NCBI GenBank assembly: GCA_024226555.1
Contig: JAAELO010000336.1
Span: forward strand, 1 to 64,000
DNA length: 64,000 bases
Reading direction: 5' to 3'
DNA from: Desulfobacterales bacterium
GTDB taxonomy: Bacteria; Desulfobacterota; Desulfobacteria; Desulfobacterales; JAAELO01
In this document: positions 20,397 to 62,829 of the stretch, piece by piece
How positions within the stretch are numbered: position 1 is the stretch's first letter
How the letters are laid out: every line of letters starts with the position of its first letter
Notes under the pieces: generated by a model
Database searches by the model: none
What the model saw: only the letters and a program-made list of their open reading frames with translations
What the model was told of the DNA's origin: nothing
Program-made: the position numbers and the translations under genes

Positions 20397-20473
20397 TGGG
20401 GTGAGTGAAGGGGCTTGAACCCTCGGCCACCAGGATCACAACCTAGTGCTCTACCAACTGAGCTACACCCACC
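20397..20473 (-). tRNA. tRNA-His (GTG)
   Basis: Read on the minus strand this is a complete cloverleaf with the extra G(-1), acceptor stem GTGGGTG/CACTCAC (one G-U pair), loop TTGTGAT with anticodon GTG, TTCAA T-loop, C discriminator paired to G(-1) and encoded CCA. G(-1) is the hallmark of tRNA-His. Confidence 0.95.
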
Positions 20474-20536
20474 ATATTAAGAATCGAACCAAGGTTAATA
20501 TTTTACTGTTAGATTTTTGTAAAAGATTTTCAGTCT

Positions 20537-20581
20537 TGGTGCGCCCGGCAGGATTCGAACCTGCGACCTGCGGATTCGAAG
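20537..20581 (-). other. attL: 3' half of tRNA-Arg (TCG) at the prophage boundary
   Basis: On the minus strand the segment matches a tRNA from the anticodon loop (CTTCGAA, anticodon TCG) through the variable and T arms to the acceptor 3' strand and CCA (CGGGCGCACCA). The bases that should form the 5' half of the anticodon stem are absent: sequence beyond 20581 is unrelated. This is the remnant left when a phage integrates by crossover in the anticodon loop. The complete tRNA-Arg should be at the other end of the prophage. Confidence 0.88.
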
Positions 20582-26930: not shown

Positions 26931-27131
26931 TTACTCCCATGGAGGCTTTGTTTCGAGGAACTGACTGTTTTTATCTATTTCCGGCAACTCAATTTCAATT
27001 CCTGCACCAAAAAAAACAATCTCCTGAATCTGAGGATTTAATTTAAGAATTTCAGAAGCTAAAGATTCACTTCCAAGCTCATTAAAAGCGATACTATCCC
27101 ACATATCACCCTGTTTAGTTATATACTTCAT
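26931..27131 (-). CDS. Tail protein X (LysM-like)
   Basis: The 66-residue protein reads as a LysM-like P2 gpX (PF05489): YITKQGDMWDSIAFNELGSE, LNPQIQEIVFFGAGIEIELP. It is needed for tail completion, and may stabilise the hub. It overlaps the tape measure gene by 4 nt. Confidence 0.9.
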   Translation of the reverse strand: MKYITKQGDMWDSIAFNELGSESLASEILKLNPQIQEIVFFGAGIEIELPEIDKNSQFLETKPPWE

Positions 27132-30412: not shown

Positions 30413-31852
30413 CTACTTAAAAACCGCCTCAAAGTTTGCAGGATCATATTCCTGGATAAATTCAATATCTCTTGCCGGGCTTGGTGGAGTCATTAAAACA
30501 TGGAACTTTTGAACCCCATCCATCAGATCAAGAACGCTATTTTCATCAGATCTGAACTCAACTGTTGCACCAAGTAGAAATTGCCTTGCAACCAATCCAT
30601 CAAGCCACATCTGAGCAGATCCAAGAATTGTTTCAATTAATCGCCTGTTTGCAGGAGCATCGATCTTTGACCAAAAGGTTAAAATCAGAGTATTACCAAT
30701 CCATTTAAACATTCTTCGAGTGCAAATCCATGCATCTTTCGGGTCAGTATTTGCCGGATAACAAGCAGTTCTGTTTCCCCATAATTTCCAGCCACCAGAA
30801 AAATTCAGAGCAGTTACAATACCCTGGCCATTAAGATAATTTGCCTGTTCAAGCTGAAGCCAAACTGTTTCACCATCAGCTACACAACTATCTATCTGTA
30901 AATTATGATTACTTGGAGAAACGTATGGTACACCCGAATTTTCAGAATCTGTTCTTGCAATCAAACCTGCGATTTGCGTTGATAGATGAAAGGTTTCTGA
31001 ACCTAATTTTACCTTTGGCCAGCAAACAATCTGAGCCGGATCCATGAAGTTTTTTGAATTCTTCTCCGCTGGTGCATCGGAATATTTTTTAACAACCGAA
31101 TCATCAAGGTCAATTAGAGCAAGGCAACTGAAGATCTGATTAATGGATTTTGCTTTTGCAGTCATAACAGCAGCAACAGCGGGTTTATGAGACCAGCCAG
31201 GAGAAACGATTAAACCAGGTAAGGTCCTGTATTTTGGATAAGTACCATTTACAAGCTCAAGACCCTTAAGTTTTCCGCTTTCTGAATCAACTCCACCAAT
31301 AATATCAAATTCAGTTACTTTAGATGGATCTCCCACTGTAAAAGCAATTGAAACATCTGCATCAGAAACAATACTTCCTGTTGAAATTCTGATTATTTTT
31401 CCATTGATAAGATCAACATCATAATCTTCACCCATAACAAAAGTAACCGGAGTAACATCTTTGCTTTTGATCTCAACCGATCCGTCAATAATACCAGGAG
31501 AAAGCTCAACCTCATCTGAACTGAATTTAAAATCAGCTGCACCAACTTCTGTTTGATGAACAGAAGGATCAAAAACATTCACAAACAAAATCGGACAGAC
31601 CGCAAAAAGAGCAAAGTGAGATTTAACAAACTCACAAAGAGAATACTTTTCCCAGTCATCTGAATATCCAAAAGTGCTGACAGCTTCTGAATAACTTGAA
31701 ATCAAAGTAACCTCTTCAACAGGCCCGATTCCGTCCTCAAGCATATGAACAGGAGCAGTACCAACAACAAAAGGAACTGCAGAATCAACACTAACTGGTG
31801 GCAGTAAACCTGTTGGAACTTCTGAACTATAAACCCCGTGTTTGTATGTCAT
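30413..31852 (-). CDS. Contractile tail sheath protein (FI-like)
   Basis: The 479-residue protein matches the sheath family (PF04984): HGVYSSEVPTGLLPPVSVDS at the start, LPGLIVSPGWSHKPAVAAVM, GGWKLWGNRTACYP and the C-terminal SKIDAPANRRLIETILGSAQMW. It forms the contractile sheath and establishes this phage as a myovirus. One base separates its start from the small upstream gene. Confidence 0.95.
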   Translation of the reverse strand: MTYKHGVYSSEVPTGLLPPVSVDSAVPFVVGTAPVHMLEDGIGPVEEVTLISSYSEAVSTFGYSDDWEKYSLCEFVKSHFALFAVCPILFVNVFDPSVHQTEVGAADFKFSSDEVELSPGIIDGSVEIKSKDVTPVTFVMGEDYDVDLINGKIIRISTGSIVSDADVSIAFTVGDPSKVTEFDIIGGVDSESGKLKGLELVNGTYPKYRTLPGLIVSPGWSHKPAVAAVMTAKAKSINQIFSCLALIDLDDSVVKKYSDAPAEKNSKNFMDPAQIVCWPKVKLGSETFHLSTQIAGLIARTDSENSGVPYVSPSNHNLQIDSCVADGETVWLQLEQANYLNGQGIVTALNFSGGWKLWGNRTACYPANTDPKDAWICTRRMFKWIGNTLILTFWSKIDAPANRRLIETILGSAQMWLDGLVARQFLLGATVEFRSDENSVLDLMDGVQKFHVLMTPPSPARDIEFIQEYDPANFEAVFK

Positions 31853-36942: not shown

Positions 36943-37341
36943 TTAGTTCCCTCCACTTCCTGCGATCTCGGAACATGCAGCAATAAAAGGATTTACTTCA
37001 CCAGTTGTTGTCGGACTTACTGTGGAATTAACAACAAAATCACCATCAGCTTTAGCTTTGATTATGAGTTTTCTTGCCTCATCAACCCCAACTTTTTTCT
37101 CAAGAAGTCCTGAAACCATTTGAGGACAACCAGCAAGTTCACAAAGTTCCGTAATCTCAAGAGCATCTTCATAACTTGGTCCATTCGAAACGTCAGTGGT
37201 TGCAGTTGTCACAGTTGGCTGTGTTGCTGCCTCCTGCGGAACCGGTTCCTCTTCAGCTTTCTTTTCAAATCCGAGATCTTTAAGGGCCTGAACACCCCCA
37301 TCACCCGACAACAGTTTTCCTAAATCTTCCTTTAGACCCAT
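36943..37341 (-). CDS. Putative nested capsid scaffold protein (Nu3-like)
   Basis: Within the protease gene an in-frame ATG at 37341 (MGLKEDLGKLL) is preceded by AAGGGGGG, a strong ribosome-binding site 6-8 nt upstream. Translation from it gives 132 residues covering the scaffold part only. Lambda C and Nu3 are arranged in just this way. Expression is inferred from the site and the precedent. Confidence 0.7.
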   Translation of the reverse strand: MGLKEDLGKLLSGDGGVQALKDLGFEKKAEEEPVPQEAATQPTVTTATTDVSNGPSYEDALEITELCELAGCPQMVSGLLEKKVGVDEARKLIIKAKADGDFVVNSTVSPTTTGEVNPFIAACSEIAGSGGN

Positions 37342-38187
37342 CAGGCCCCCCTTATTCTTTTTCTTGTTTAAATTTACTAAAATATGGTTAATTGCTTCCT
37401 TCCTGGACATCACATAATCTGCCAGACCATTATCAACCGCATCCTGTCCTGTGAAAATTCCAGCTTCAGTTCCTGAAATTTTATCGATGGAAGCACCACG
37501 ATTTCGTGAAACACTTTCAACGAATAAACTGTAGGTTTTATCAACGCTATCCTGAGCCCTTGCATGAGCCTCTTCAGATAGTTTTGAATGTCTTGAAAAA
37601 TCGTTCTTTCTTTCTCCGGCAAAAATAGAAGTATATGAAACACCTTCCATCTCATCTCTTTTGCTTTCATCGATGTGAACTGAGATAACGCCAATTGAGC
37701 CGACCTGACCTGTTCGAGGGATATAAATAGAATCGGTGGCAGAGGCAATTGCGTATGCAGCCGAGAAAATAAACTCATTTGCAATGGCACAAACTGGTTT
37801 TTTTCCCCGTGCCTCATGAATTTCATCAACCAGATCAAAACACCCCGCAACATCACCACCAGGACTATCAATATCAAAGATGATTGCATCAATACTTTCA
37901 TCCATCAGAGCTTCAGAAAACATCTTGCGTATGCGGTCATAAGACATTGAGCTGTAGAGCCAGCTTAAAAAACCAGAGCTTTTGTGTCTCAATGCACCGG
38001 AAATCGGAATAATTGCAGCAGTTAATGGAGCTCCACTGTTCAGATTATTGGAACTGATCATTTCAGGAGATGGAATTTCTGCACCTTCACCCATAATTTC
38101 CGGACTCATGGAAGCAAGAAATTCAACAGCACCCGGAAGCATCATTAATGGTCTGTTTGCAAGTAATTGAAGCAACTGTTTATTCAT
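36943..38187 (-). CDS. Head maturation protease (S49 family) with scaffold tail
   Basis: I place the start at 38187 (MNKQLLQLLA), which overlaps the portal stop by 8 nt and has GAGGA upstream; the frame to 38259 is longer but lies inside the portal gene. The 414-residue protein has the SppA/ClpP-type serine protease fold (IFDIDSPGGDVAG, IANEFIFSAAYAIAS with the nucleophile serine, GQVGSIGVISVH) and a C-terminal low-complexity and helical part (from about GLMGLKEDLGKLL) typical of a scaffold. It matches lambda gpC. An internal start probably produces the scaffold alone. Confidence 0.9.
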   Translation of the reverse strand: MNKQLLQLLANRPLMMLPGAVEFLASMSPEIMGEGAEIPSPEMISSNNLNSGAPLTAAIIPISGALRHKSSGFLSWLYSSMSYDRIRKMFSEALMDESIDAIIFDIDSPGGDVAGCFDLVDEIHEARGKKPVCAIANEFIFSAAYAIASATDSIYIPRTGQVGSIGVISVHIDESKRDEMEGVSYTSIFAGERKNDFSRHSKLSEEAHARAQDSVDKTYSLFVESVSRNRGASIDKISGTEAGIFTGQDAVDNGLADYVMSRKEAINHILVNLNKKKNKGGLMGLKEDLGKLLSGDGGVQALKDLGFEKKAEEEPVPQEAATQPTVTTATTDVSNGPSYEDALEITELCELAGCPQMVSGLLEKKVGVDEARKLIIKAKADGDFVVNSTVSPTTTGEVNPFIAACSEIAGSGGN

Positions 38188-39649
38188 TAGATTCCTCTTC
38201 TTCCTCATAGTCATCAGCAGACTGGTAAACACCGCTGATTGTTGTTCTTCGCGGATCACTATCCAGAATAATTTTTAATTGATCCACTCGCTGATTATCT
38301 CTTTTAATCTCCCTATCAACCTTTTCAATATCGTAGCCAAGCTCAGCAATTGACTGATCACGGGATTTTAGACCGGATCGAATTGCAATCAGTTCAGCCT
38401 TCACATCCTGAAGAGGATTAACGTACTTCCAACCGTCAGGCCTCCACTGAATTCTTTTGTATTCACGAATTTTCTTATTGAAATCGGGAACTGAAATAGC
38501 TCCTGAGATGACTGCAACTTTGAGCCAGTCGTTTGATATTGGTCTACAGAACTGAAATATAATCTGGTTTTTCTGAATCAGAACGCATCTTCTCTGGAAC
38601 TCAAGAAGACCAGCCCGAATGGAAGAAAAATTTACTTTGGAGAGATCTCCTGTGAGCTGCTCATAGGTAATTCCAATTCCCTTTGCAACAGCACGGATCT
38701 CATGCTCCATCCAGGCGATGTAATTACCACCAACATCTTTCGGATTTGAAAAAGTGACCTCATAACCTTCAGGAAGTTCTGAAAAAGTCCCCGGTTCAAG
38801 AGCAACAATTCCATTCTCTTCTTCATCACCTAAAACTCTCTGCTCGTCATTTGGCGGTTTTGTTATGAACCCACCAAACATTGCAGTTGTTTTTCTTCGA
38901 ACAAGCTCAGCATCAGAGCACTGGTCAATCTCGTGCAACTTTACTATTATGGATGATAACCAGGGGCGACCACGTTGCTGACCAGGACGAAGGCGTTTAA
39001 AAATGTGACAAATCCTGTCAGCAGGAATTCTGATTCGCTCACCAAAATCAGCTCCATTTAAAAAAGCTTCTCCCGGGTGTTCTTTAAACATCCAGTAAGC
39101 GAGTCTTTTATTCTTTTTGGAATATTCAATCCCCATTCTGATCTTGTTGCCATTGGGTGCAACAGCATTATAAGAAGCATCACAAAAATCACTTTCAAGA
39201 ATCTGGATCTGAAAAGGAACAATCAGGTTTAAATCATTAACGTAGTGCTTTAAAACAAAAACCTCTCCGGCCTCAATTAAAGATCTTGTTACAAGACCCT
39301 GAAGGCCATAGAAATCATCCAGCCCTTCAAAATCAAACTCATCAACACAATCACTCCAGAGCTCCTGAACCTCTTCTTTCTTTGCATCATCTTTAATCTG
39401 CCAACGGGGAGTTATGCCGGTCCCAATCAAATTTGCAACAAAGGAGTCCACGCCACCATCTGCGAGGGGGTTGTTTCGCGTTAATTCTCTGGATCGGTTC
39501 CTGAGACTTGAAAGGGAGTTATGTAAAACATTGTTGGGACCGGCACTACTCATTCCCCAGGTATGAAGACGCCTGCCAGTGGATGCACCTTCATGGGCCT
39601 GAATCTTATTTCCATTATGATCAAGAATCTTAAGGGTTCTTGCTTTCAT
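38180..39649 (-). CDS. Phage portal protein (lambda family)
   Basis: The 489-residue protein matches lambda gpB (PF05136): NNPLADGGVDSFVANLIGTG, WSDCVDEFDFEGLDDFYGLQ, RIRIPADRICHIFKRLRPGQ and RGRPWLSSIIVKLHEI. It forms the dodecameric vertex for packaging. It overlaps the gpW start by 1 nt and the protease start by 8 nt. Confidence 0.94.
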   Translation of the reverse strand: MKARTLKILDHNGNKIQAHEGASTGRRLHTWGMSSAGPNNVLHNSLSSLRNRSRELTRNNPLADGGVDSFVANLIGTGITPRWQIKDDAKKEEVQELWSDCVDEFDFEGLDDFYGLQGLVTRSLIEAGEVFVLKHYVNDLNLIVPFQIQILESDFCDASYNAVAPNGNKIRMGIEYSKKNKRLAYWMFKEHPGEAFLNGADFGERIRIPADRICHIFKRLRPGQQRGRPWLSSIIVKLHEIDQCSDAELVRRKTTAMFGGFITKPPNDEQRVLGDEEENGIVALEPGTFSELPEGYEVTFSNPKDVGGNYIAWMEHEIRAVAKGIGITYEQLTGDLSKVNFSSIRAGLLEFQRRCVLIQKNQIIFQFCRPISNDWLKVAVISGAISVPDFNKKIREYKRIQWRPDGWKYVNPLQDVKAELIAIRSGLKSRDQSIAELGYDIEKVDREIKRDNQRVDQLKIILDSDPRRTTISGVYQSADDYEEEEESNE

Positions 39650-46510: not shown

Positions 46511-48472
46511 TCACCCTCCCATAAATTTAGAACGTACCGTGTTTATCTTTTTCTTTGTAGATGCCTTTTTAATTCTTGGTTTTAAGAGGTTAACCCCACC
46601 ACCGGGCCATTCCCAGTCTGAGAGAGCTGCGTTCATGCACTCACAATCGAGGTAATGGTTATCTCTTTTGAGCTGAACCCACTCTTCAGCACCGTTTTTC
46701 TGAAGCTGTTTTTCCTCTGCAAGGATCTGCTTTGCATAATCATCGTCAACTTTCGAATGAAGGTAAGCTGCTATCCCCTCTTGTTTCACAGCGTTTCCCA
46801 GACGATCATAGACAATATCTTTAAATCTGTTTGTGTCCAGGAAGTACAGGCGAAACCCGTTTTTCAAGGGCTTGCCGCTTGGAGTTGATTTCAGCTCAGC
46901 CCCTCTTTTAACTTTCTTTTCCTGTGGTCTTGAAGCCCCTTTCATTCCCCAGATTCGGGGACCATTCCAGCCCTTAACCTTTTGAAGCCAAAGCAGTGTT
47001 GCTTCTGTCATGGATTGACCGGAATCATATCTACCACCACCTGTATCAACCCCTCCGCGCCAGATCGGAAGCATCTCTTTTGAATCCTGAACGGGATAAG
47101 CAGTATCAAAAAACAGGTTTTCCACATCTCCCCAGGTTCCAAGATCTCCATAATCTATCAACCAGGAGTGATAATTTGGAGCCCATGCCCTCACCAGATA
47201 CCAGAAACCTCTTTTCTGAACATCAACCGCAGCAGTGACTGCAACCGCTTCCTGTGGAATAGTTTGTGGTGGAAGAGGTGTTTTTGCTTTAAGAATAGTC
47301 ACATTGTCTGAGGTTACTATGATCTGTTTATAGGGCTTTGCTTCATAGTTGTTTGCGTAATCCTGCTTTTCTTCAGGTCCTCCGTTTTCCGCTTTGATGT
47401 ATCTTGCAACTGTTTCAGAGATGGGAACAAAGAAAGATATCCAGGAAGGAACATGAAAGCCGATTTTCTTTGGTTTGAAGCTCTTAAGATATGTAAAGAG
47501 TTCAATCTCTTTTCCCCGGGATCTCCATTCACCAGCCCGAACAGCTTTGTTTCTAACATCATCATTCCACGCACTTTCACAAAACCTGCATTCATAATGT
47601 GCCAGATATTCAGATTCAATCTTTCTATAGTCAGCCTTTAAACCGCCTTCCCATCTGCAATTATCAATTGACATGACCTGATAATCCTCACAAAAAGGAC
47701 ATTTAGCAAAGTAGTCAAAGATAACCTGAGCCTCAACAGTCAAAGCTTCCCAGATGAAGCCTGTTTCTGTTGTTGGTGTGGAAAGTTTTATTATTTTTGC
47801 TCTGTTACGTCTCTTAAAAGTTGTTGTTCTCTTTTCTCCCAGAGAGATTGTATCTGTCTCGTTCTTAGCTGCGGTCTGTGGATACTTGTCTGTTTCATCA
47901 AAAACAACATATCTGTACGCTGCGGATGCAAGAGAAGCGGGAGAATGAGCCCATGCAATATCAATATCCAGATGTTTCAGCCTGATTCCCAGATTGTTTT
48001 CATCGTTCACACTACCAGTGAGGTATTTTTTCAGGTTGGAACTTGCCTTAAACATGGGCAGAATTCTCGTTTTAAGCTGCTTTTTACCTGCATCCTTGTT
48101 TGGGTATACATAAAGTATGTTACCGGGTCCTCTGTCAGCCATACAACCCATTAAGCTGTGAAAATTTTCTGTGCCACCGGATTGAACACATTTGCAAAGG
48201 ATTGTGGTTTCAACTCCCGGAAAATCAGCAGCATCAATAATTCCGACCATGTACGGAGTGAACAGGTTTTTCATTGGTCCTGCAAGATCTGAACTATCTG
48301 GAAGAACCCTGTATTTTTCCTGCCAAACAGACGGACGAACCATCGTCTTCTTCCTCATCATCTTCTTTTCTGCTGAAGAAAAACTGAAAGTATGAACTGG
48401 TCCATTATCTAAAATGAGCTGAATGTAGCTCTTCGGCATCCACTTCGGAAATTTTTTAACATTAACTATCAT
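46511..48472 (-). CDS. Terminase large subunit, GpA family
   Basis: I start it at 48472 (MIVNVKKFPKW), with AGGAG upstream, overlapping terS by 11 nt; the frame extends to a GTG at 48490. The 653-residue protein has the GpA ATPase with the deviant Walker A of lambda type (KCVQSGGTE, lysine at the start of the loop), Walker B (YVVFDETDK) and a C-terminal nuclease (TAAVDVQKR and GGVDTGGG aspartates). It cuts and translocates the DNA into the head. Two zinc-like CPFC and CRFC motifs lie between the ATPase and nuclease parts. Confidence 0.94.
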   Translation of the reverse strand: MIVNVKKFPKWMPKSYIQLILDNGPVHTFSFSSAEKKMMRKKTMVRPSVWQEKYRVLPDSSDLAGPMKNLFTPYMVGIIDAADFPGVETTILCKCVQSGGTENFHSLMGCMADRGPGNILYVYPNKDAGKKQLKTRILPMFKASSNLKKYLTGSVNDENNLGIRLKHLDIDIAWAHSPASLASAAYRYVVFDETDKYPQTAAKNETDTISLGEKRTTTFKRRNRAKIIKLSTPTTETGFIWEALTVEAQVIFDYFAKCPFCEDYQVMSIDNCRWEGGLKADYRKIESEYLAHYECRFCESAWNDDVRNKAVRAGEWRSRGKEIELFTYLKSFKPKKIGFHVPSWISFFVPISETVARYIKAENGGPEEKQDYANNYEAKPYKQIIVTSDNVTILKAKTPLPPQTIPQEAVAVTAAVDVQKRGFWYLVRAWAPNYHSWLIDYGDLGTWGDVENLFFDTAYPVQDSKEMLPIWRGGVDTGGGRYDSGQSMTEATLLWLQKVKGWNGPRIWGMKGASRPQEKKVKRGAELKSTPSGKPLKNGFRLYFLDTNRFKDIVYDRLGNAVKQEGIAAYLHSKVDDDYAKQILAEEKQLQKNGAEEWVQLKRDNHYLDCECMNAALSDWEWPGGGVNLLKPRIKKASTKKKINTVRSKFMGG

Positions 48473-49019
48473 CTCTGTTATTCTCCTCACTGCAATTTAT
48501 TGTGTAGCTATCAACCCTTGTGAGATCATGAAGCAGATCTGTCCATTTTTCTTCAGCAAGATTCTTTGCTTCATTGACTTTGGTCATGTTCCCGGTAAGC
48601 AGGCTGCAAATATCCGGCATAATCTCTTCAACCATCTGCCTGAAGTTCAGATCCAGAACAACCAGAAGATTAACCTGGTTAAGATTTGACTCAGTAATTT
48701 TGATATATTTCTTTTGATCCTTCTCAAAATCAAACCTGAGCCTTTTGTTTTTGATCCTGAAGTTTTCAATCTCTAAAGTTCTTTTTTCTGCTTTGTCTTT
48801 GTCCACAGCTTCGGGATTTGATTCTTCAATTTTTTCAAGCTCAGCCCTGACAATATAAGCAAGCACTTCTGTTTCAGAAATGGGTTTGCCTTTTTTTACT
48901 TTAATCAAACCTTCAGCTTTGTCCTGGTACAATTTTGTTTTTTCAATCTTGTATCCGGCATTTTGCAGATGCCTGAGCACATCCATCAAAGTTTTGAATT
49001 TTTTTTCTGACTTTTCCAA
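48462..49019 (-). CDS. Terminase small subunit
   Basis: The 185-residue protein lies directly upstream of the large subunit, has an N-terminal winged helix-like region (LMDVLRHLQNAGYKIEKTKL, DKAEGLIKVKKGKP), and a long helical middle (ENFRIKNKRLRFDFEKDQKK) typical of Nu1-type small subunits. It recognises the packaging site. The gap to the next gene (49020-49152) contains no gene. Confidence 0.8.
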   Translation of the reverse strand: MEKSEKKFKTLMDVLRHLQNAGYKIEKTKLYQDKAEGLIKVKKGKPISETEVLAYIVRAELEKIEESNPEAVDKDKAEKRTLEIENFRIKNKRLRFDFEKDQKKYIKITESNLNQVNLLVVLDLNFRQMVEEIMPDICSLLTGNMTKVNEAKNLAEEKWTDLLHDLTRVDSYTINCSEENNRDDS

Positions 49020-49935: not shown

Positions 49936-52245
49936 TTATACCCTCAGTCCAAGGCCGTTATAATACATTAAACGTTTACCATTTACCGATCTACGCCCAC
50001 TTGTAATACTTCTGTGTATGGATCTGATCTCTCTACCGAAATGATTCGAATTCAGCGGATGAAATCCATATCTGGTGCAGTACTTTTTGTACTCTCCATA
50101 CAGATCTTCAAGTGATACAGAGATCGGGTTCATGCTATCACCTTCGTTCTCAGTGATACACATCTCATCAGAGAATGACATAACCGGATTATTTGACTTC
50201 TTATACTTCCTTAAGGTCTCATTAACGCCCTTAGCTTCGGTAAATTCTCCCTGATCTCTAAGCCTTTGCAGACCATCAAGGGACCACTTGAAAATGCCAT
50301 CAAGCTCAGTCATAAGTTTGTCCACAAGGTCAATATCTTTGTCTTTACCAAAGAACTGTTTTTTAAAGGGAATTAGAAGAATACGCCTGAACAGGCCGTC
50401 TGTGTTATCAAGAACTTTAGGAAAACGATTATAAGCAAAAGCCAGCTTACAAAAGGGCTTGAACTCAAAAACATCTTTGTTTTTAAATGCTGCTGTGATC
50501 AGATCACCCGAAACAATTGTTTTAAACCATCCGGATTCAAAGGCCTTACCTTCAACCTCAGCAGCAGTGTTTAACAGTTTTTTATAAAGCGTTGCCCTGT
50601 GGAACTCTTTCTCTAAGGATTCCATGTTTATTGCAGCACAGTTATTTACACCAACAACAGCCTGAAGAATACTTAAAAGAGTTGATTTACCATCGGACCC
50701 AGGGCCAAGAAGATGTAAACTTTTTTCGTGTTTTACTTCTCTGGTCAGGCAGTAACCGAAAAACTCCTGGACAACTTTTATCGTGTCCTCATCCTGAATA
50801 GTCTCTTTTAAAAACCTGATCCAACGCTCACAAGCTGCGTTCCTGTCGTAAATAACGTCAAGAGCATAGCTTGAATAATACTTCTTGTCGTGGGCTTTTA
50901 ATTCAAAGGTTTTCAGGTCAAACATGCCATTTCCAAGACAGACAATATCTTCGTTATCATCCATCTCAACACCAAAATCCAGAGTAGATCTGTCCTGAAC
51001 CTGAGTAACAGCATCCGAAACAAAAGAGGTTCTTGTTTCTTCACCCAAAAGATTATGGGCTTGTTTTCTTAGATGCTGCGGATCGTATGTCTCCCAATAT
51101 TTAAAATTCCACCGATATAAAAGCCCTGTGGCTGGCTCGGAAACAAGGCTGATATTACTCATAATCTCTTTTGCCAGTCGTGCCGGTTTAAAACTCTTCC
51201 CATTAAAAAAGCGTCTTGTGCTTTCATGCATCTCATGAACTTCAAAATGCCTTGCTTCAGAGAGAAGATCCTCAAGGTCAGATACAGATTTGCCAAACTT
51301 CATAAAAAAATCAGTCAAATCATTCCCATGTTTATCTGGAAGCTTTTTCTTGTAGTCATGCATAAAATCAGGCCAGCGTATCATCCTTACACTTTTTACT
51401 GATTTAACAAGTTTTTCAGCAACCATCTCAGCACCTTCAAAACCCGGAATGTCATCATCATAGGCAATAACCACATCACAGCCTTTAAGCTGCTTTGTGA
51501 ACTCCTTGCTCCAGTTGTTAACACCGTGAGTTTGAGAAATAGCATTTAATCCATGGGACCGGGCACAGATACAATCCGGCTCTCCTTCACAGATCCAGAT
51601 AAGCTCACTTTTATCAACCTCCTGGGGGGAGGGGAAAAGTGATGTTCCAAGATTAGCCATCCAGGGCATTATCTTAAACTTCTCTTCTCCGGGCTTTGGC
51701 TTTGGTGCATATACTTTGATATTTTTAAGAACACCTTTTTCATCTCTAACCGGAATAGCAATTTTTTTTGGATCTTTAATCTCAATGAGCTTTGAGGTTT
51801 TAGGATGCCTGAAATATGTCTGAAGCCGAATATCTAAAGATTTAATAATATCCTCAGACCAGCCTCGTTTCTCTTTAAATTTTTTAATCCAGGAAGGGGA
51901 AAGGGGAGGAAGCTTTGAAAGTGAATACTCAAGATCATCTCCATTTTTAACTACCACAGGAGCCTCTTTCTTAACATATTCATCCATGAAAGCCATGTAA
52001 CCCTCTTTCTGGCTTAAGCCTTTAACCTGTGTATACAGCATTACAAGATCCCCTTGAGATCTCTTGCCACACGTAAAACACCCTCCCAAATCCTTCACAT
52101 AGTTGTATCCATAACTTGAGTTCTTCTCATCATGAAACGGACACAAACCCCTTACTTCATCTTTTTTTACTTCCGTTACCTGAAAAAGCGATTCTGCAAT
52201 CTCTTTTCGTTTCTCAGGACTTAAATGCTCCAATGCTTTGCCCAT
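49936..52245 (-). CDS. Phage primase-helicase (zinc finger, Toprim, D5-type helicase)
   Basis: I start it at 52245 (MGKALEHLSPEK), with AAGGAGGT upstream; the frame reaches back to 52320. The 769-residue protein has a CHC2-type zinc finger (GLCPFHDEKNSSY, GCFTCGKRSQGD), a Toprim domain (LIWICEGEPDCICA, DVVIAYDDDIPGFEGAEM), and a C-terminal D5/primase-helicase domain with Walker A (LGPGSDGKSTLL) and a following INMESLEKEF segment. It combines priming and unwinding for phage replication, as in P4 alpha and related proteins. It belongs to the leftward run. Confidence 0.9.
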   Translation of the reverse strand: MGKALEHLSPEKRKEIAESLFQVTEVKKDEVRGLCPFHDEKNSSYGYNYVKDLGGCFTCGKRSQGDLVMLYTQVKGLSQKEGYMAFMDEYVKKEAPVVVKNGDDLEYSLSKLPPLSPSWIKKFKEKRGWSEDIIKSLDIRLQTYFRHPKTSKLIEIKDPKKIAIPVRDEKGVLKNIKVYAPKPKPGEEKFKIMPWMANLGTSLFPSPQEVDKSELIWICEGEPDCICARSHGLNAISQTHGVNNWSKEFTKQLKGCDVVIAYDDDIPGFEGAEMVAEKLVKSVKSVRMIRWPDFMHDYKKKLPDKHGNDLTDFFMKFGKSVSDLEDLLSEARHFEVHEMHESTRRFFNGKSFKPARLAKEIMSNISLVSEPATGLLYRWNFKYWETYDPQHLRKQAHNLLGEETRTSFVSDAVTQVQDRSTLDFGVEMDDNEDIVCLGNGMFDLKTFELKAHDKKYYSSYALDVIYDRNAACERWIRFLKETIQDEDTIKVVQEFFGYCLTREVKHEKSLHLLGPGSDGKSTLLSILQAVVGVNNCAAINMESLEKEFHRATLYKKLLNTAAEVEGKAFESGWFKTIVSGDLITAAFKNKDVFEFKPFCKLAFAYNRFPKVLDNTDGLFRRILLIPFKKQFFGKDKDIDLVDKLMTELDGIFKWSLDGLQRLRDQGEFTEAKGVNETLRKYKKSNNPVMSFSDEMCITENEGDSMNPISVSLEDLYGEYKKYCTRYGFHPLNSNHFGREIRSIHRSITSGRRSVNGKRLMYYNGLGLRV

Positions 52246-52262
52246 ATATTTTGTCGACCTCC

Positions 52263-52505
52263 TTATTTTAGTGATATATTCAGAGCTATGGCTACAGCAA
52301 TTAACCCAATTAAACCGCATAAGAGTAAATTACAGGCTATAAACATGAGACCGTTTACAATTGGCCTCTGATAGAAAGTTATAATTGATTTACAAAAAGA
52401 CCTCTTCTGAAGTAATGGCTTTGAATTAACATCAGACAAATGTCGGGTTAAGTATTTTAACTGTGCTTGATTCAATGGAACCTCTTGTGATATAGTTTTA
52501 TTCAT
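52263..52505 (-). CDS. Small membrane protein, unknown
   Basis: The 80-residue protein has a C-terminal hydrophobic segment (about 52-77, LMFIACNLLLCGLIGLIAVA) and AAGGGGAA before its ATG. It lies 17 bp upstream of the primase-helicase start. No family is recognised. Confidence 0.55.
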   Translation of the reverse strand: MNKTISQEVPLNQAQLKYLTRHLSDVNSKPLLQKRSFCKSIITFYQRPIVNGLMFIACNLLLCGLIGLIAVAIALNISLK

Positions 52506-54932: not shown

Positions 54933-55197
54933 TTTTTCTCCCATAAATTTTTAATTGTGTATTACACAAATTGTAATATAATTTAAATTTAAGAATAATA
55001 AAAGTATTTTTTAATAATTCGTAAAGATTTCCATAGCTTGTATTTGTCGCAAAAAATAATAGGGACGTTCTTTTCCTCTTCGCAGTGATCAATTTTGGGC
55101 GGTCATGTCTTTAAAATATGTTTGCTATTAAATGTATTTTTACATATTTTAGGACAGTCTATTATTCCTTTTGCAAACTCATAGAAAGTTGGTACCC

Positions 55198-55926
55198 ATG
55201 AAATTTAATAAAATCATTATCTCCATTTTTTGCCTGTTAATAACACCTGCTGCTCTTCAGGCTGGAGGGAACACAACTATTAGTTCTTTTTCTAAGGCTA
55301 AAAAGATACTTCAGAAGAAAGTTTATCACGACCATAGAGTAACGTTTTATTGTAAATGCCCATACCGAAAGAATAAGACCATTATTAAATCTAACAATTT
55401 TTCACCATCCACAAAGCATTTCAAGAGATCCCGTAGAGTAGAATGGGAACATGTTGTTCCTGCTCACAGCTTTGGTCAATCGTTTAAAGAATGGCGAAAG
55501 GGAGATCCTAAATGTGTGAATAGGAAAGGTAGATCCTTTAAAGGTAGAAAATGTGCAGAAAAAGTAAACATGAAATACCGATATATGCAGGCAGATCTCT
55601 ATAATCTCGTACCTGCAAATGGACAGGTCAATGCACTGAGATCTAATTATAGTTATGCGATTATTCCAGGTGAACAAAGGCAATTTGGTGCTTGTGATAT
55701 GGAAATTAGAAGTAGAAAAGCTGAGCCAATGCCAGAGATCAGGGGTGATATTGCCAGGATCTATTTTTATATGGATGATGCATATCCTGGTCGGGGTATC
55801 ATAAGCAGGAAAAACCGTAAAATGTTCAAAGCCTGGGATAAAGCAGATCCTATTGATGCATGGGAAAGAAAACGCGCAAAGAGGATAGAACGGATTCAAG
55901 GTAATGTGAACAGGTTTGTACACTGA
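55198..55926 (+). CDS. Secreted endonuclease I (EndA/Dns family)
   Basis: I start it at 55198 (MKFNKIIISIF), the natural signal peptide; the frame opens at 55171. After a signal peptide (cut near LQAGG), the 242-residue product has the endonuclease I core: EWEHVVPAHSFG with the catalytic histidine, QADLYNLVPANGQVNALRSN, and YFYMDDAYPG. The family cuts double-stranded DNA outside the cytoplasm. In a prophage it could digest rival DNA or help the host use DNA. It stands alone on the plus strand. Confidence 0.9.
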   Translation: MKFNKIIISIFCLLITPAALQAGGNTTISSFSKAKKILQKKVYHDHRVTFYCKCPYRKNKTIIKSNNFSPSTKHFKRSRRVEWEHVVPAHSFGQSFKEWRKGDPKCVNRKGRSFKGRKCAEKVNMKYRYMQADLYNLVPANGQVNALRSNYSYAIIPGEQRQFGACDMEIRSRKAEPMPEIRGDIARIYFYMDDAYPGRGIISRKNRKMFKAWDKADPIDAWERKRAKRIERIQGNVNRFVH

Positions 55927-55977
55927 TCAAATAAAGCAAATGAGGTTAAAACTCGGTGCTTTGAAACAAAAACGTAC

Positions 55978-57114
55978 CTACGAAACTTCCTCAATAAATT
56001 CCCAATCATCAAAATGTGTTGATGTGTTGCATAAACAATTTTGATTATGCCCATAAAGCCATAAATCTGTATTTATAACTCTATCAATGAGTTCATTTTT
56101 GATTTCTTCATCAAGACTGTTCCACCACAATGGATTTAGATATATGTTTTCTGTGAATTCAAAGAAAAATAGAATTAACCTATTTGTTATTTGATCTTTT
56201 GGTATAGCCCTCAGGCTATTTATAAATGCTTCGCAGTGTTTTTTGCTATTTTCATTGTCGATCCAACAAAACACTACAGCACCGCCTGATTCAGTTGCTA
56301 TTATTGAAGCTGTTAACAAATCAGGTGTAAGGGTCAAGTCAGCTAAATCAATAAGCTTTTCTCCATTAAAATCGCATTCAGGGAAAATACCAGTACTACA
56401 CATTATTGAAGGTGTTTTTTTAAAATAAATTGTATATGTTTTTACGTTTCGAAAATCACAAGATAAAAGAATACTATTCATCTGGTCTAAATGGTATTGA
56501 GAGTCTCTTTTTCCAGCTTCTGTACCAGATTTTGAATTTGCTGCTATTCTCTGAATAACTTCTTGAGTTAAAGAGTCTGTACCTTTATCTGAATTTTTTA
56601 GCAAATCAGTTGATTTAGAGTGTGATATTTTTAAAAAGACTTCACGCGCTTGAGCTCTATAGGCCAGTAAAAAGCACTGTTCTTTTGTGTTTTCAAAAGG
56701 TTTATCTTCAAGAGGTGAAAATAGATTCTTGTCATGATATTTACAAAAGCCTGAAAATGTAGAAGCTTTATTTATTCCTACAAGCTCCGGCTTAAGTTTA
56801 CCGTTATTTTTTGTTAAATTCTCAAACGATGGAATAAATGCATAAACATGACTATCAATTGCAATTTTTTTTAAATTTTGGCTTTTAGAAACGGTATGAG
56901 CTTTAATAATTTTGCTATTACATTTGTTTTTTAACTCTTTAGGTACGATACAGTATTTAGCACTAAAAGCTTTTTTTAGATCTGCTTGAGCTTTCCATGG
57001 TTTTACAGGTTCTTGGTTTTCACGATTTAAGTGACACTTCTTATATTTGACTCCAGATCCACACCAACATGGCTCGTTTCTACCAATTTTTTTTTTTGAT
57101 TTTGCTTGATTCAT
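55978..57114 (-). CDS. SEC-C motif protein, possible nuclease-like defence protein
   Basis: The 378-residue protein begins with a SEC-C motif (IGRNEPCWCGSGVKYKKCH, C-x-C-x8-C-H) and has a conserved-looking IKAHTVSKSQNLKKI region (about 70-85), which recalls the H-x-V/x-S-K histidine motif of some HNH-like proteins, followed by GFCKYHDKNLF. The remaining part is helical with no recognised domain. Similar proteins occur in defence islands of bacteria (knowledge, by memory). It is the second SEC-C protein of this prophage. Function not known. Confidence 0.6.
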   Translation of the reverse strand: MNQAKSKKKIGRNEPCWCGSGVKYKKCHLNRENQEPVKPWKAQADLKKAFSAKYCIVPKELKNKCNSKIIKAHTVSKSQNLKKIAIDSHVYAFIPSFENLTKNNGKLKPELVGINKASTFSGFCKYHDKNLFSPLEDKPFENTKEQCFLLAYRAQAREVFLKISHSKSTDLLKNSDKGTDSLTQEVIQRIAANSKSGTEAGKRDSQYHLDQMNSILLSCDFRNVKTYTIYFKKTPSIMCSTGIFPECDFNGEKLIDLADLTLTPDLLTASIIATESGGAVVFCWIDNENSKKHCEAFINSLRAIPKDQITNRLILFFFEFTENIYLNPLWWNSLDEEIKNELIDRVINTDLWLYGHNQNCLCNTSTHFDDWEFIEEVS

Positions 57115-57219
57115 TACTTTTATCTATCCTTAGTCCCAAAGCATTGATTAAATATCAATATTTCCAATACCATGATCTCTATCATAAGGAGTAATTTCGT
57201 CTTTAAATAATAATGCAAT

Positions 57220-57270
57220 GGGGTCAGATCTGCTTTTGGCTTTTGCAAAGGTCGTTAGCAGACTTGATAT
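57220..57270. repeat. REP-like palindromic unit (R1)
   Basis: GGGGTCAGATCTGCT faces AGCAGACTTGATAT with the loop TTTTGGCTTTTGCAAAGGTCGTT (in part GGCTTTTGCAAAGG). This unit recurs almost unchanged at 59347 and 59522. It fills much of the gap between the SEC-C gene and the zinc-ribbon gene. Confidence 0.8.
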
Positions 57271-57335
57271 ACATATAAAGGTAGCAGTATTATCGGTGCG
57301 TTAAAAACAAAAACGCACCCTTTGAAACTATAAAA

Positions 57336-57758
57336 TTAGTTTAAATTTAAACCCCATATTATAAACCTTAAAACTAAATACAAAGGGATGAGACAAAGGA
57401 TGGCACCAAAGGAAAATCTATTATCATTTAAATATTCTTTTTCCAATTGATCAATCATAAGTATATCAAGAATTTTACGTGTAATAGAGAAAACAAGTAT
57501 TGAGACAACACTTGTAAATTTAGTGCTAATAATAAGTAAATAACATACAACTAAAACCCAAGATATTAATAATGCCAATAAACTTACTTTGTACTCTTTT
57601 TTTTTTAATTTTCTCTTTCTCTCTGTAATTGTAAGATCACCCTTGATTTCAAGGGTTTTCTTAGCTCCACACTTACATACAAAATGAATCACTTTTTGGG
57701 TATCACACTCATCTGATTCGAGAAACTCTCCACACATATCACATTGTGTAATTGTCAA
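57336..57758 (-). CDS. Zinc-ribbon membrane protein, unknown
   Basis: The 140-residue protein has an N-terminal zinc ribbon (CDMCGEFLESDECD then CKCG) and two to three membrane helices (about 55-75, 80-98, 115-135). No family is recognised. Bordered on both sides by REP-like units. Confidence 0.55.
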   Translation of the reverse strand: MTITQCDMCGEFLESDECDTQKVIHFVCKCGAKKTLEIKGDLTITERKRKLKKKEYKVSLLALLISWVLVVCYLLIISTKFTSVVSILVFSITRKILDILMIDQLEKEYLNDNRFSFGAILCLIPLYLVLRFIIWGLNLN

Positions 57759-57872
57759 AAGAACTCCTTAAGAAAGTATTTTGTATTAGTTCAACCTTAA
57801 TACTATAAGGGTTTTAGTTATGTACCTTTGATATTCAATATAATAGAAGGATGATACGGTCAATATAAAAAA

Positions 57873-57898
57873 CAAAGGTCATTAGCAGACTTGACCCT
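57873..57898. repeat. REP-like half unit (R2)
   Basis: CAAAGGTCATTAGCAGACTTGACCCT is written here in parts: CAAAGGTCATTAGCA then GACTTGACCCT. It is the right half of the unit at 57220 and sits at the left edge of the GC-rich block. Confidence 0.75.
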
Positions 57899-58230
57899 AT
57901 CTTTTGAAGGTCAGTTACAGGGCCTCCCGATTCCCGCGCAAAAGATTTCTGTGCATGCATGAGGTCTCCGACCCCGTCAGGTCCTTATAACCCTTACCAA
58001 CACGGGCTATAAAATCTTGCCTTCTGTGCAAATGAACCACATCGGCACCTGAAATTTTAATCTTTTACGAGGCTCAATATTCAGCCTGCACTTTCCCTTG
58101 TCAACGCTTCGCTAAGGACGTTACCGCCGTCAACGCATGACTCAGGGCTGGCGTGGGTGGTTAACCCTTCACCATAGGACACTTTCAGTCCCTAACTCTT
58201 GCCGGTTTTAATCGGCGCTCTCATTAGCAG
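57899..58230. other. GC-rich non-coding block between REP-like half units
   Basis: This block of about 330 bp is much richer in G and C than its surroundings and contains no long frame in any direction. It is bounded by the right-half repeats at 57873-57898 and 58222-58247. Sequence style suggests a structured RNA or a remnant of a mobile retroelement leader. I do not recognise it. It occupies most of the 531-bp gap 57759-58289. Confidence 0.5.
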
Positions 58231-58247
58231 ACTTGACCCCCATCTTT
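58222..58247. repeat. REP-like half unit (R3)
   Basis: CATTAGCAGACTTGACCC followed by CCATCTTTT is the same right-half repeat as R2 and R6. It closes the GC-rich block. Confidence 0.75.
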
Positions 58248-58289
58248 TCTACTAATGCAGTGTGATGAAATAGCTATGAGCTCCACCGA

Positions 58290-59063
58290 TCAATCAATAT
58301 AGTTCCTGGTGATTCTTTCGATAGTTCCATCTTTTTTCATTTGTGTCATGATACGATTGATCTTTTTGAGTAATTCTATTTTGTTAGGTATTTTAGACTT
58401 TTTTGATATTACGAGAAAGGCTTTCCTTCCTGTTTTCCCATTTTTATCAAGATCAGTTAAGGCTTTACCCACAACTTCTTTTCTTTTATGCTTTTTTAAG
58501 TATAGTCCAACCGTTGAACGTTTTCCAACAATGACAGGTAAGCGTTTAAAGTAAACCATTTTTAATAACTGGGAATATCGATTCATCTCATATAGCTCAA
58601 TATCTCCATTTTTCGTAGCGGTGTCAAAAGCAGGAGAAACACTAATTCCACGAAGCTTTCCCACTTTTTGACCGTACAGATCACTTAATTTATTATATTT
58701 GTTTTTATTTTCCTGTAAACAATAAGCCATATAAAGAGTCCTGTGTACTGGAACCTGGGTGTAGATTGAATATTTTTGTCTTTCTGGAGTGACGAATAAA
58801 GGAAAGCCCCCATCAACCAGTCCATCTTCAATGGATATGAGAACGCGAACCCAGGGAACCAATCTAAACTCGACTGTTATATTAGCACGTTTTGCCATTT
58901 CCTTGATTACGTCCACATCAATTCCAACAATCTCGCCCTTGTTATTTTTATAAACAGAAGGTTTATTCCCGGTATTACCCACTAAAACCAGCTTTTGAGA
59001 GGAAAAAGCGTCCTGACCTATGAGACATAGGGCAAATACAATCAATATTAGTTTTCCTTTCAT
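58290..59063 (-). CDS. Solute-binding protein, amino-acid-type (bacterial extracellular family 3)
   Basis: The 257-residue protein has a signal peptide (1-20) and the family 3 core: GNTGNKPSVYKNNKGEIVGIDVDVIKEMAKRA (in part GEIVGIDVDVIKEMAKRA), WVRVLISIEDGLVDGGFPLF, and VGKLRGISVSPAFDT. Many such proteins bind amino acids, but orphans in Desulfobacterota and relatives are often of unknown use. There is no transporter partner in the window. It lies between REP-like units, which hints at chromosomal origin. Confidence 0.85.
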   Translation of the reverse strand: MKGKLILIVFALCLIGQDAFSSQKLVLVGNTGNKPSVYKNNKGEIVGIDVDVIKEMAKRANITVEFRLVPWVRVLISIEDGLVDGGFPLFVTPERQKYSIYTQVPVHRTLYMAYCLQENKNKYNKLSDLYGQKVGKLRGISVSPAFDTATKNGDIELYEMNRYSQLLKMVYFKRLPVIVGKRSTVGLYLKKHKRKEVVGKALTDLDKNGKTGRKAFLVISKKSKIPNKIELLKKINRIMTQMKKDGTIERITRNYID

Positions 59064-59666: not shown

Positions 59667-61640
59667 CTAATCCAATGGTACAATTTTAAAATATTTTTCT
59701 CTTAGTTCAAACAATAAACCAGAATCAGTTTCAAGATATTTTAAAATTCTATTGTCAAAGTTATCTACTATTAAGTTTCCTATCAATTTAACTAATCCTT
59801 TCGAATTGTAATGTCTAATTCCAAGGTCATAATCTTTGTCATTTAAAATTTTCTCTAAAAGCAATTTTCTTTCATTAATAAGTTTTTCAATATCAAGTTT
59901 TTTTATAGTTTCATTGAATTCTTGTTTAAGACCATCTACAGTTCTTGATTTCTTTAATAGATTATTTTTAATAGTATTATTAATTTTTTGAGTAGCATAA
60001 TCTATAGCTTGATATTCAATATTTTTCTCAATACTGTTAAAAAAATGAACTTTTGCATTTTCGACTTTAATATCTTCACAACAAAATTGTTTTGCTCCTG
60101 CTTTAAGGACTCTTTCATCACACAAAAGGTTTTCAACCTCTTGAGTTTCTATGCAATATATTGAATTTTCAATCCATTTAGTTTTTTGATTATCTGAATG
60201 ATAGTCCCCATCTATAATTCCTATTGAAGTGTTTCCAAAAATTTCTTTAGATTTATTAAAAGCACGAGTATAATTTATAACCTCTATATGTCCACCGACT
60301 GGTTTAACGGTATAATTTGGAAACATCATAGAGTACAACTTATAATCAATACTTGATTTTTCTCCTTCACAAAATAGTATTTTTTTTCTACTTCCTAATA
60401 TTTCCATTAACAATTGTTCGGGGATTTCTTCATCATTCGGAAATAAAACAACATCCCAAATATCTGGTGGGGTGAACTTCTTATTCCAAAGTTTTGTTGC
60501 TTGTATTCTTGAAGAGGCAAAATCAAGGCTATGTGTTAGAAAGATAAACTTACAGTCTTCTCTTAATAATTCCAGTGTGTCCCAAAGTTTAGAAGCAATT
60601 CCAATATGGAGGTGATTTTCTGGTTCATCTACAATAATGTATGAATTTTCTTTGGCAAGTAATACATGAGATACATAATAGAAAATAGCTTTCTCACCAT
60701 CACTCAATCTTGGAAATTCATAATGTTCACCTCTTGGTGGATAAATATTTAAATTATAGTTTTCATACTTCATTTTTCTGTGAATAATAATTTCATTCCA
60801 ATATTTCATTGCCCTTTCTAACTTGGACTTTGGATAGTTTTTTCTTTTAACCTCTGAAGTATGATAATATTTTTCAACATGTTTATGATGATCTGCAACA
60901 AGACTTTTGATTAAGTTATTCAAATCTTCAGAATATTTATGTTGTGAGCCCCAATCTTTTCCTAATTTTTCATCTGCTTGAAATTCATGAACAGAATTGA
61001 GAGGAACTGAATCTATAAGAATATGATTTACTCTTTGAATGTTAAATATTTTTTGAGCTGATATGATAGAAACATTAGTTCCAAATATACTTTTTGTTCT
61101 TCTAGAAAAAGAACTTTTTCCAGAACCATTAGCCCCAATAATAACAACACTCTGTTCAATATCTTTTATACTATCAAAAGACTTAACATGATATAGTCTA
61201 TTTAGGGTGTTTTCTATAATTTTATTATTATTATATAGAATATCTTGAATGCTATTGATAAAATCATTTCTTGCATTGGTATTTTTATCTAAATAGATGT
61301 TTTCATTAATTCCGGATAGTCCATTAGAACATTTGATTAAAGAGTTTTCAATTGAAGTTAAAGAATTAATCGTAGTAAAGACTAAATTATAGTATTGGTG
61401 AGTCCATTTTTTTTGAAATTGATTTTTTATACCATTTATTTGCTCTATTAATTTTGGACAAAGAGATATTTCATTCTTTACTTTTTCAAATGCGTTATGA
61501 AAATTTTTTCCTAAAAATTTTGAAAGCAACTTTATTATTTTATTTTCATTGTTCAATACATCATTCATAACTACAGAGTATTGATCTATTATAGATATGC
61601 TTTGATCAGATTTTTCTTTTAGCAGATCTATTTCATTCAT
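59667..61640 (-). CDS. AAA ATPase-DUF4435 fusion (PARIS/OLD-like anti-phage candidate)
   Basis: The 657-residue protein has an ABC-type ATPase with a long coiled insertion: Walker A (VVIIGANGSGKSSF, about 172-185), ABC signature region (FPRLSDGEKAIFYY, about 307-320), Walker B (SYIIVDEPENHLHIG) and switch histidine (KFIFLTHSLDFAS). The C-terminal third carries a DUF4435/Toprim-like domain (ILFCEGEKSSIDYKLYSMMF, IGIIDGDYHSD, YCIETQEVENLLC). This is the domain set of the AriA and AriB proteins of the PARIS defence system in one chain, and also resembles OLD-type nucleases. Position just outside the immunity region and low GC content fit defence cargo. Activity is inference. Confidence 0.8.
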   Translation of the reverse strand: MNEIDLLKEKSDQSISIIDQYSVVMNDVLNNENKIIKLLSKFLGKNFHNAFEKVKNEISLCPKLIEQINGIKNQFQKKWTHQYYNLVFTTINSLTSIENSLIKCSNGLSGINENIYLDKNTNARNDFINSIQDILYNNNKIIENTLNRLYHVKSFDSIKDIEQSVVIIGANGSGKSSFSRRTKSIFGTNVSIISAQKIFNIQRVNHILIDSVPLNSVHEFQADEKLGKDWGSQHKYSEDLNNLIKSLVADHHKHVEKYYHTSEVKRKNYPKSKLERAMKYWNEIIIHRKMKYENYNLNIYPPRGEHYEFPRLSDGEKAIFYYVSHVLLAKENSYIIVDEPENHLHIGIASKLWDTLELLREDCKFIFLTHSLDFASSRIQATKLWNKKFTPPDIWDVVLFPNDEEIPEQLLMEILGSRKKILFCEGEKSSIDYKLYSMMFPNYTVKPVGGHIEVINYTRAFNKSKEIFGNTSIGIIDGDYHSDNQKTKWIENSIYCIETQEVENLLCDERVLKAGAKQFCCEDIKVENAKVHFFNSIEKNIEYQAIDYATQKINNTIKNNLLKKSRTVDGLKQEFNETIKKLDIEKLINERKLLLEKILNDKDYDLGIRHYNSKGLVKLIGNLIVDNFDNRILKYLETDSGLLFELREKYFKIVPLD

Positions 61641-61968: not shown

Positions 61969-62451
61969 CTACATTCCCTTGGCTTTCTTTTTAGCGGCTT
62001 TTTTTTCAGCATTCTTTTTTTCGTAGAGTTGGAAATCGAGGAATTCGTTAACTTTTTCAAGGCTTTTTGGATCTAACTTTTCAAGTTCAACCATTTTCAT
62101 ATTACATTCTTTGGCCAGTTTCTTTTGTTTGAATTTTTTAATAACTTCGGAATGTAATTTATCCTGGTGATCATCCAGGTCATTATTTTTTGATAATATT
62201 TCAGGCTCTTTTGCTGAAATATTGTTTTCCTTATTAAACAGTTCCTGCCCGAGAACAAGCATTTCAAGATATGTTTTCCCAAAATAAGCAGCAATAATTT
62301 CCATTTTCTCTTCAGAGAAACCTCTTTTACCCTTCAGAAAGGAATTAAAGTGTGGGCGTGAAATATTAAGAGCGTCAGCTATTACACTTTGCTTATTTTT
62401 TTTTGAAATATAACTCTCAACAGATTTTATAAATAAATCAGTACTTTTCAT
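61969..62451 (-). CDS. Phage repressor (XRE/CI-like, short)
   Basis: I start it at 62451 (MKSTDLFIKSVES), the second methionine after a short upstream extension; the longer frame (62475) is possible. The 160-residue protein has an N-terminal helix-turn-helix of about 15-58 residues (QSVIADALNISRPHFNSFLK, GKRGFSEEKMEIIAAYFGKT) followed by a lysine-rich helical tail with no peptidase domain, so it would not self-cleave as lambda CI does. It is divergent from the Cro-like gene, separated by an operator region, and marks the immunity region. Confidence 0.85.
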   Translation of the reverse strand: MKSTDLFIKSVESYISKKNKQSVIADALNISRPHFNSFLKGKRGFSEEKMEIIAAYFGKTYLEMLVLGQELFNKENNISAKEPEILSKNNDLDDHQDKLHSEVIKKFKQKKLAKECNMKMVELEKLDPKSLEKVNEFLDFQLYEKKNAEKKAAKKKAKGM

Positions 62452-62461
62452 AGTTTTATTA

Positions 62462-62545
62462 CCTATCATTGGCAATAATATTTTTCAATTTCCGACATAT
62501 GGCAACTTTATCCTTGACAATTATTTCCACATTATGGCAATTTTA
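62462..62545. promoter_or_regulatory. Immunity operator region with ATGGCAA-type repeats
   Basis: ATTGGCAAT (near 62468), ATATGGCAA (near 62498) and TTATGGCAA (near 62532) repeat a TTGCCAT/ATGGCAA half-site. TTGACA at 62514-62519 can serve as the -35 element of the rightward promoter. The repressor and Cro-like protein probably compete for these sites. Confidence 0.6.
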
Positions 62546-62565: not shown

Positions 62566-62829
62566 ATGAGATTACCAAACGGAACATTAGTAAAAATTCA
62601 TAAAATCACCGGTATTTCAACGCCAAACCTAAGTGAATACATTTCAAACAAAAGATTTCCAAGCCGTAACCGTGCAATCGTATTAGGTAATGCATGTGCA
62701 AAACTCGGTTTCAATGTTCCAAAAGAAACATGGATGTTTGGAACAACTGAAGAAATAAAATCAGCCTTAATAACTTGTAATCAAAAATCTGAAGACTCGA
62801 CAACGAAAAAACAAATGGAGATTTTTTGA
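62566..62829 (+). CDS. Cro-like helix-turn-helix protein
   Basis: The 87-residue protein has a helix-turn-helix pattern (LVKIHKITGISTPNLSEYIS, about 9-28) and AAAAAGGAGAA 6 nt before its ATG. As first gene of the rightward run opposite the repressor it fits a Cro-type regulator. It ends 1 bp before the next gene. Confidence 0.75.
   Translation: MRLPNGTLVKIHKITGISTPNLSEYISNKRFPSRNRAIVLGNACAKLGFNVPKETWMFGTTEEIKSALITCNQKSEDSTTKKQMEIF

Follow-up and report, generated by a model that had tools for sequence, protein, structure and literature searches.

The question raised by this locus is whether a prophage protein that joins an ABC ATPase to a Toprim-like nuclease in one chain is a PARIS system and, if so, how the nuclease might be switched on. 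In two-gene PARIS, AriB is kept bound by AriA until a trigger sets it free, after which it dimerises (PMC11455837). Six AriA subunits sequester three AriB subunits in that complex (6:3), whereas a single chain forces a 1:1 ratio, so that free release of AriB would be impossible without cleavage. We analysed a 64,000-nucleotide stretch of a Desulfobacterales bacterium contig (JAAELO010000336.1, positions 1 to 64,000; hereafter the window), in which the initial annotation had described such a fusion as a PARIS-like, phage-borne defence protein that could work by a different mechanism.

The gene (59667..61640, minus strand) is an uninterrupted frame of 657 codons, with a GAGG ribosome-binding-like motif a few bases 5' of its ATG. 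The 657-residue product matches the Pfam families AAA_21 (47.9 bits) and DUF4435 (49.5 bits), each against a cut-off of 27, and the host genome holds no second DUF4435 match. The AriA-like ABC ATPase half (residues 157–399; 60444..61172, minus strand) contains a Walker A motif (GANGSGKS, residues 169–176; 61113..61136, minus strand) with K175, the signature residue S313, the Walker B pair D338 and E339, and the H-loop residue H370. The DUF4435/AriB-like Toprim nuclease match (residues 420–633; 59742..60383, minus strand) contains the Toprim glutamate E425 (60366..60368, minus strand) and a DxD motif formed by D477 and D479 (60204..60212, minus strand). For comparison, 107 fused homologues were collected as BLAST hits at E 1e-20, leaving out five duplicate loci, ORFs shorter than 480 residues and ORFs without a recognisable Walker A. 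Across all 107 rows K175, S313, H370, E425, D432, D477, D479 and E503 are invariant, and the Walker B Glu position is occupied by Glu in 93. Judged by its motifs, the gene is real and intact with a full catalytic set, and the reported fusion of an ABC ATPase with a DUF4435 Toprim part is borne out.

The AriAB gene lies within an integrated prophage of ~48 kb on the 69,686-bp contig, in agreement with the initial annotation. Recognisable phage genes include those for the tape measure (27128-29437), tail sheath (30413-31852), head protease (36943-38259), portal (38180-39649), terminase large subunit (46511..48490, minus strand; phrog_15), a D5-type primase/helicase (49936..52320, minus strand; assigned by profile matches) and a tyrosine integrase (contig 67595-68662). 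The prophage can be delimited to ~20.5-68.9 kb of the contig, because a 46-bp attachment repeat at 20536..20581 recurs identically at contig 68806-68851 within a tRNA-Arg gene. A tRNA-His gene (20397-20472) adjoins the left repeat, and a tRNA-His/tRNA-Arg/tRNA-His array (contig 68721-68999) abuts the integrase end, where the tRNA-His copy may be the phage's own. The AriAB gene is located 328 nt downstream of, and in the same direction as, an HTH repressor-like gene (61969..62475, minus strand) that probably encodes the prophage repressor, with an HTH_3 match below cut-off and matches to phrog_8 and phrog_3. Beyond it lies a small divergent ORF (62566..62829, plus strand), a possible Cro-like gene by its position, for which Pfam and PHROG profile scans returned no family match. 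Given this weakly matched repressor-like gene and the divergent ORF, placing AriAB next to the immunity region is reasonable. Promoter and terminator scans scored no better than shuffled sequences. Scans of viral contigs with the AriAB protein or the prophage primase as a single-protein query returned no relative, which left no sister prophage for comparison at the AriAB locus. A ParA query found three distant loci.

Several other features of the prophage deserve mention. A ParA-like partition gene (phrog_164; contig 64784-65524) is adjoined by an ORF (contig 65512-66339) that is a candidate ParB by its sequence, a pair as seen in phage-plasmids. The segment 62831-63397 is a lone fragment resembling a GpA-type terminase nuclease domain, with 38% identity to the prophage's own terminase. 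Between the primase and AriAB, 55171-59063 forms a cargo-like stretch unusual for a prophage, with profile matches to an Endonuclease I family protein (55171-55926), a SEC-C motif protein (55978-57114) and a family-3 solute-binding protein (58290-59063; SBP_bac_3). The ORF at contig 66543-67187 is, by its sequence, a candidate HNH endonuclease gene.

Profile searches assign the protein to PARIS. The PADLOC AriAB fusion model PDLC02982 matches residues 157-651 with 370.9 bits (E 2.9e-111), and the separate PADLOC AriA and AriB models match as well, more weakly than AriAB. Within the family alignment, the AriAB profile matches 38 of 38 members and DUF4435 the C-terminal halves of all 38 relatives. 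An NCBIfam scan yielded nothing beyond generic ATPase families, all far below cut-off, and the matches from a BFVD search were likewise generic, to ATPases or ATP-dependent endonucleases. Among phage families, phrog_25246 (616 residues) matches residues 64-652 with 387 bits; its name, “ABC transporter”, is misleading and conveys no function beyond it. Membership of the PARIS family is very probable. The initial reading as PARIS-like therefore stands, supported by the AriAB match and an AriB-like C-terminal half. Single-gene fusions were, however, described earlier: Rousset et al. 2022 (PMC9122126) found ariAB in 5.2% of genomes, either as a cassette of two genes or fused into one, built profiles for the fused AAA_21+DUF4435 form, and located PARIS-containing hotspots between cI and the integrase in Vibrionaceae prophages. 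Since both were already reported there, neither the fused form nor its prophage location is new.

What does distinguish the protein from ordinary fused AriAB, as modelled by PDLC02982, is its N-terminus. The two domains, their order and the single chain are the same; the 657-residue protein adds a ~156-residue domain outside the matched range (residues 1–156; 61173..61640, minus strand), which a whole-chain AlphaFold2 model (mean pLDDT 86.1) predicts to be all-helical, with eight helices at residues 3–154. Neither this domain nor the published fusion detection models figured in the initial annotation. Walker A lies mostly at residue 25–45 (up to 90) in ordinary fused AriAB and at residue 121–186 in extended proteins, about 168 in the present one. 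In a tree of the 107 homologues built without the extension, all extended proteins fall into one clade of 32 rows (SH-aLRT 100); in a tree of 63 of these rows (all 32 extended and 31 hand-picked short ones), the clade receives 100/100 bootstrap/SH-aLRT and the extension is a single change. The genome collection had been searched with a four-sequence Toprim alignment, and among the best 80 of 137 matches that were kept, together with the other homologues, the clade has members in at least five phyla (Bacteroidota, Bacillota, Spirochaetota, Fibrobacterota and Pseudomonadota). Two viral contigs also belong to it, as does Oenococcus phage phi9805, the nearest phage record, in which the extension is present too. 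The phrog_25246 match, which starts at residue 64, likewise takes in part of the N-terminal domain. Nearest to the 657-residue protein within the clade are rumen Fibrobacter and Treponema genomes. Two apparent exceptions were rejected: L069, a Hydrogenothermaceae member of the clade that looked short, has an extension-like stretch in another frame upstream of position 763, reflecting a frameshift, a sequencing error or recoding; and L076, outside the clade, looked extended by an extra N-terminus that reads like an out-of-frame upstream stretch, a start-codon artefact. The PARIS literature, in the portions searched, does not mention fused AriAB with an N-terminal extension, and a domain that defines one clade looked new relative to ordinary AriAB.

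The N-terminal domain changes faster than the rest of the chain. Of 43 pairs whose ATPase identity exceeds 0.6, 42 show their lowest conservation there, as do 274 of all 406 pairs, the distant ones lying at the limit of what can be read from an alignment. In six of six close pairs its dN exceeds that of the ATPase, and in the four of these where omega was computable it ranges from 0.07 to 0.25. By these sequence comparisons the domain is the fastest-evolving part, yet under purifying selection, and is therefore a real, fast-changing protein domain; the C-terminal tail of AriAB also evolves fast. The N-terminal domains of 17 relatives share no Pfam family, the 14 weak matches each occurring in one of the 17. 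Profiles of different subgroups match one another weakly (hhalign E 0.008, probability 5%; two other comparisons were worse), so distant groups do not appear convincingly homologous by profile, and common descent of the domain rests mainly on the clade and on position. In 30 of 31 rows the domain has an isoelectric point under 7, that of the present protein being 7.7; such an acidic domain suits an acidic Ocr-type DNA mimic poorly as a trigger.

Two roles for this domain can be weighed. It may serve as a sensor, a tentative assignment to which we give somewhat less than even weight. The alternative, which we regard as comparably plausible, is an oligomerisation or autoinhibitory helical bundle that replaces the in-trans inhibition of AriB by AriA; the all-helical prediction, the position directly before the ATPase and a weak long-helix alignment, from residue 1, to the N-terminal parts of retron PtuA chains all point in this direction. 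Set against a bundle is the finding that the domain changes fastest even between close relatives, more typical of a recognition surface, although such change is compatible with a structural role too and could also come from a helical spacer under relaxed constraint.

A second alternative concerns the nuclease itself. OLD class 1 and GajA proteins are likewise single chains of an ABC ATPase and a Toprim domain, and a 2023 review (PMC10568477) leaves open how fused AriAB relates to the OLD classes and whether it forms one of its own. The protein might be an OLD/GajA-like enzyme that responds to a DNA end or to nucleotide state by cutting DNA. Residues 391–657, modelled separately (pLDDT 90.7), were compared with 994 solved chains by structure re-ranking, and the two best-ranked chains are AriB: 8v46_D (Z 9.8, 216 residues, 8.1 Å) and 8ux9_A (Z 9.2, 208 residues, 6.1 Å). 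OLD C-terminal regions (Z 6.2–6.7) and GajA (Z 4.8–5.5) rank directly after them. AriB emerges only in this re-ranking; with the C-terminal half as query, Foldseek alone matched nothing in the PDB at E 0.001, and AriB was also missed when PDB sequences were searched by profile. The ATPase half aligns with AriA 8v45_C (Z 14.1, 207 residues, 3.2 Å), tied with retron PtuA (Z 14.2). Among solved folds, the C-terminal half is thus closest to AriB of two-gene PARIS from E. coli B185 (8ux9, 8v46), whose AriA is among the nearest solved chains for the ATPase half. In addition, the ends of the aligned range (model 12 with AriB 3) would set E425 opposite AriB E26, making E425 its probable counterpart in the model; mutation of E26 abolishes cleavage, according to PMC12409363. 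No OLD Toprim family was detected by Pfam in the 657-residue protein at E 1 or in the 38 C-terminal halves at E 0.01; the protein has DUF4435 instead. The flanking genes scanned, encoding the SBP_bac_3 and HTH proteins, contain neither a GajB-like helicase gene nor an HNH family; Septu/retron PtuA is an ATPase paired with an HNH nuclease, whereas the present protein carries a fused DUF4435. Because the C-terminal half is nearest to AriB, the structure prediction against AriA/AriB and OLD proposed at the outset did not yield an OLD-type fold devoid of PARIS features. On profiles and C-terminal fold ranking, the protein is PARIS-like rather than plain OLD, and an OLD/GajA-like DNA nuclease is unlikely. 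Membership of PARIS, as a prophage-borne single chain of a distinct extended subtype, is well supported.

How the nuclease might be activated is best approached from the junction between the two halves. The segment at residues 412–426 (MEILGSRKKILFCEG; 60363..60407, minus strand) ranks second in conservation among 15-residue windows across the 107 rows, above Walker A. The spacing between H370 and E425 is 54–56 residues in 95 of the 107 rows and 53–63 overall, and in the structural alignments the end of the AriA range (about residue 444 of 464) runs almost directly into the start of the AriB range. Sequence and model together suggest a junction that is short and ordered, not by its look a loose or cleavable linker. 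Its conservation and near-constant length speak for activation in place rather than for release of the nuclease. Release could in principle persist through proteolysis at the junction, followed by dimerisation as described for classical PARIS (PMC11455837), but a highly conserved, ordered segment of near-constant length is unlike a cleavable linker, and we consider such a cut improbable. The conservation of the junction looked new as a feature of fused AriAB.

The distribution of the gene is patchy. Among 96 same-order genomes, 10 contain a match at E 0.001, the own genome included, and the host's own is the only one to extend over the whole query, the others being partial; in 297 genomes from the phylum, four match at E 1e-20, again including the own genome, and the three others start at residue 162 or later, none covering the N-terminal domain. 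Matches so rare indicate a sporadic gene, and AriAB is probably horizontally acquired cargo. In the 31 other extended loci and the window, ORFs within 6 kb yielded a single neighbour cluster, common to three loci; AriAB, having no conserved neighbours, seems to act alone. On a Paraburkholderia sabiae plasmid (L019:1360-5635), a two-gene AriA/AriB pair is directly followed by a fused AriAB. Split AriAB-like ORFs on plasmids of Rhizobium binae (L137) and Campylobacter coli (L138) were rejected as two-gene forms; they are likely frameshifted copies, because the annotation of related records gives a single chain. That AriAB is cargo with no defence role, or is inactive in this host, would fit its low G+C content (26.5%, against about 30–41% in the 4-kb blocks of the contig) and the frameshifted copies in relatives, but is very unlikely in view of the intact ORF, the full catalytic set and purifying selection across the family.

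An anti-phage function is likely. Two-gene PARIS is characterised by Ocr or other phage anti-restriction proteins as triggers, tRNA cleavage and abortive infection. The host genome carries an HsdR_N match (type I restriction subunit family), so that the host appears, from sequence, to have a first-line system on which anti-restriction proteins could act. We favour, with moderate confidence, the reading that this N-terminally extended, prophage-borne single-chain AriAB serves as an abortive-infection or superinfection-exclusion system. In the proposed mechanism, the ATPase halves would assemble and keep the Toprim halves inactive, and a protein of an invading phage would be detected; the fast-evolving N-terminal domain, acting with the ATPase, would probably do so. 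A change in ATPase shape would then allow the Toprim halves of neighbouring chains to pair in place, with no release of the nuclease, as they would be held by the short ordered junction. The paired nuclease would cut host tRNA, and translation would stop. RNA is a reasonably probable target in preference to DNA, and activation in place, the simpler reading than release by a cut, is given modest credence. The fuller proposal, that the extended clade is a mechanistically distinct PARIS combining a variable N-terminal domain with non-Ocr-type triggers and tethered, in-place Toprim pairing, is speculative and on balance doubtful.

Classical PARIS needs the release of AriB, and a widespread one-chain form with no capacity for release would stand in contrast to it. 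Extended AriAB would make two questions testable, namely whether fused AriAB represents a separate OLD-like class, as raised in PMC10568477, and whether an exchangeable domain determines the trigger range of PARIS.
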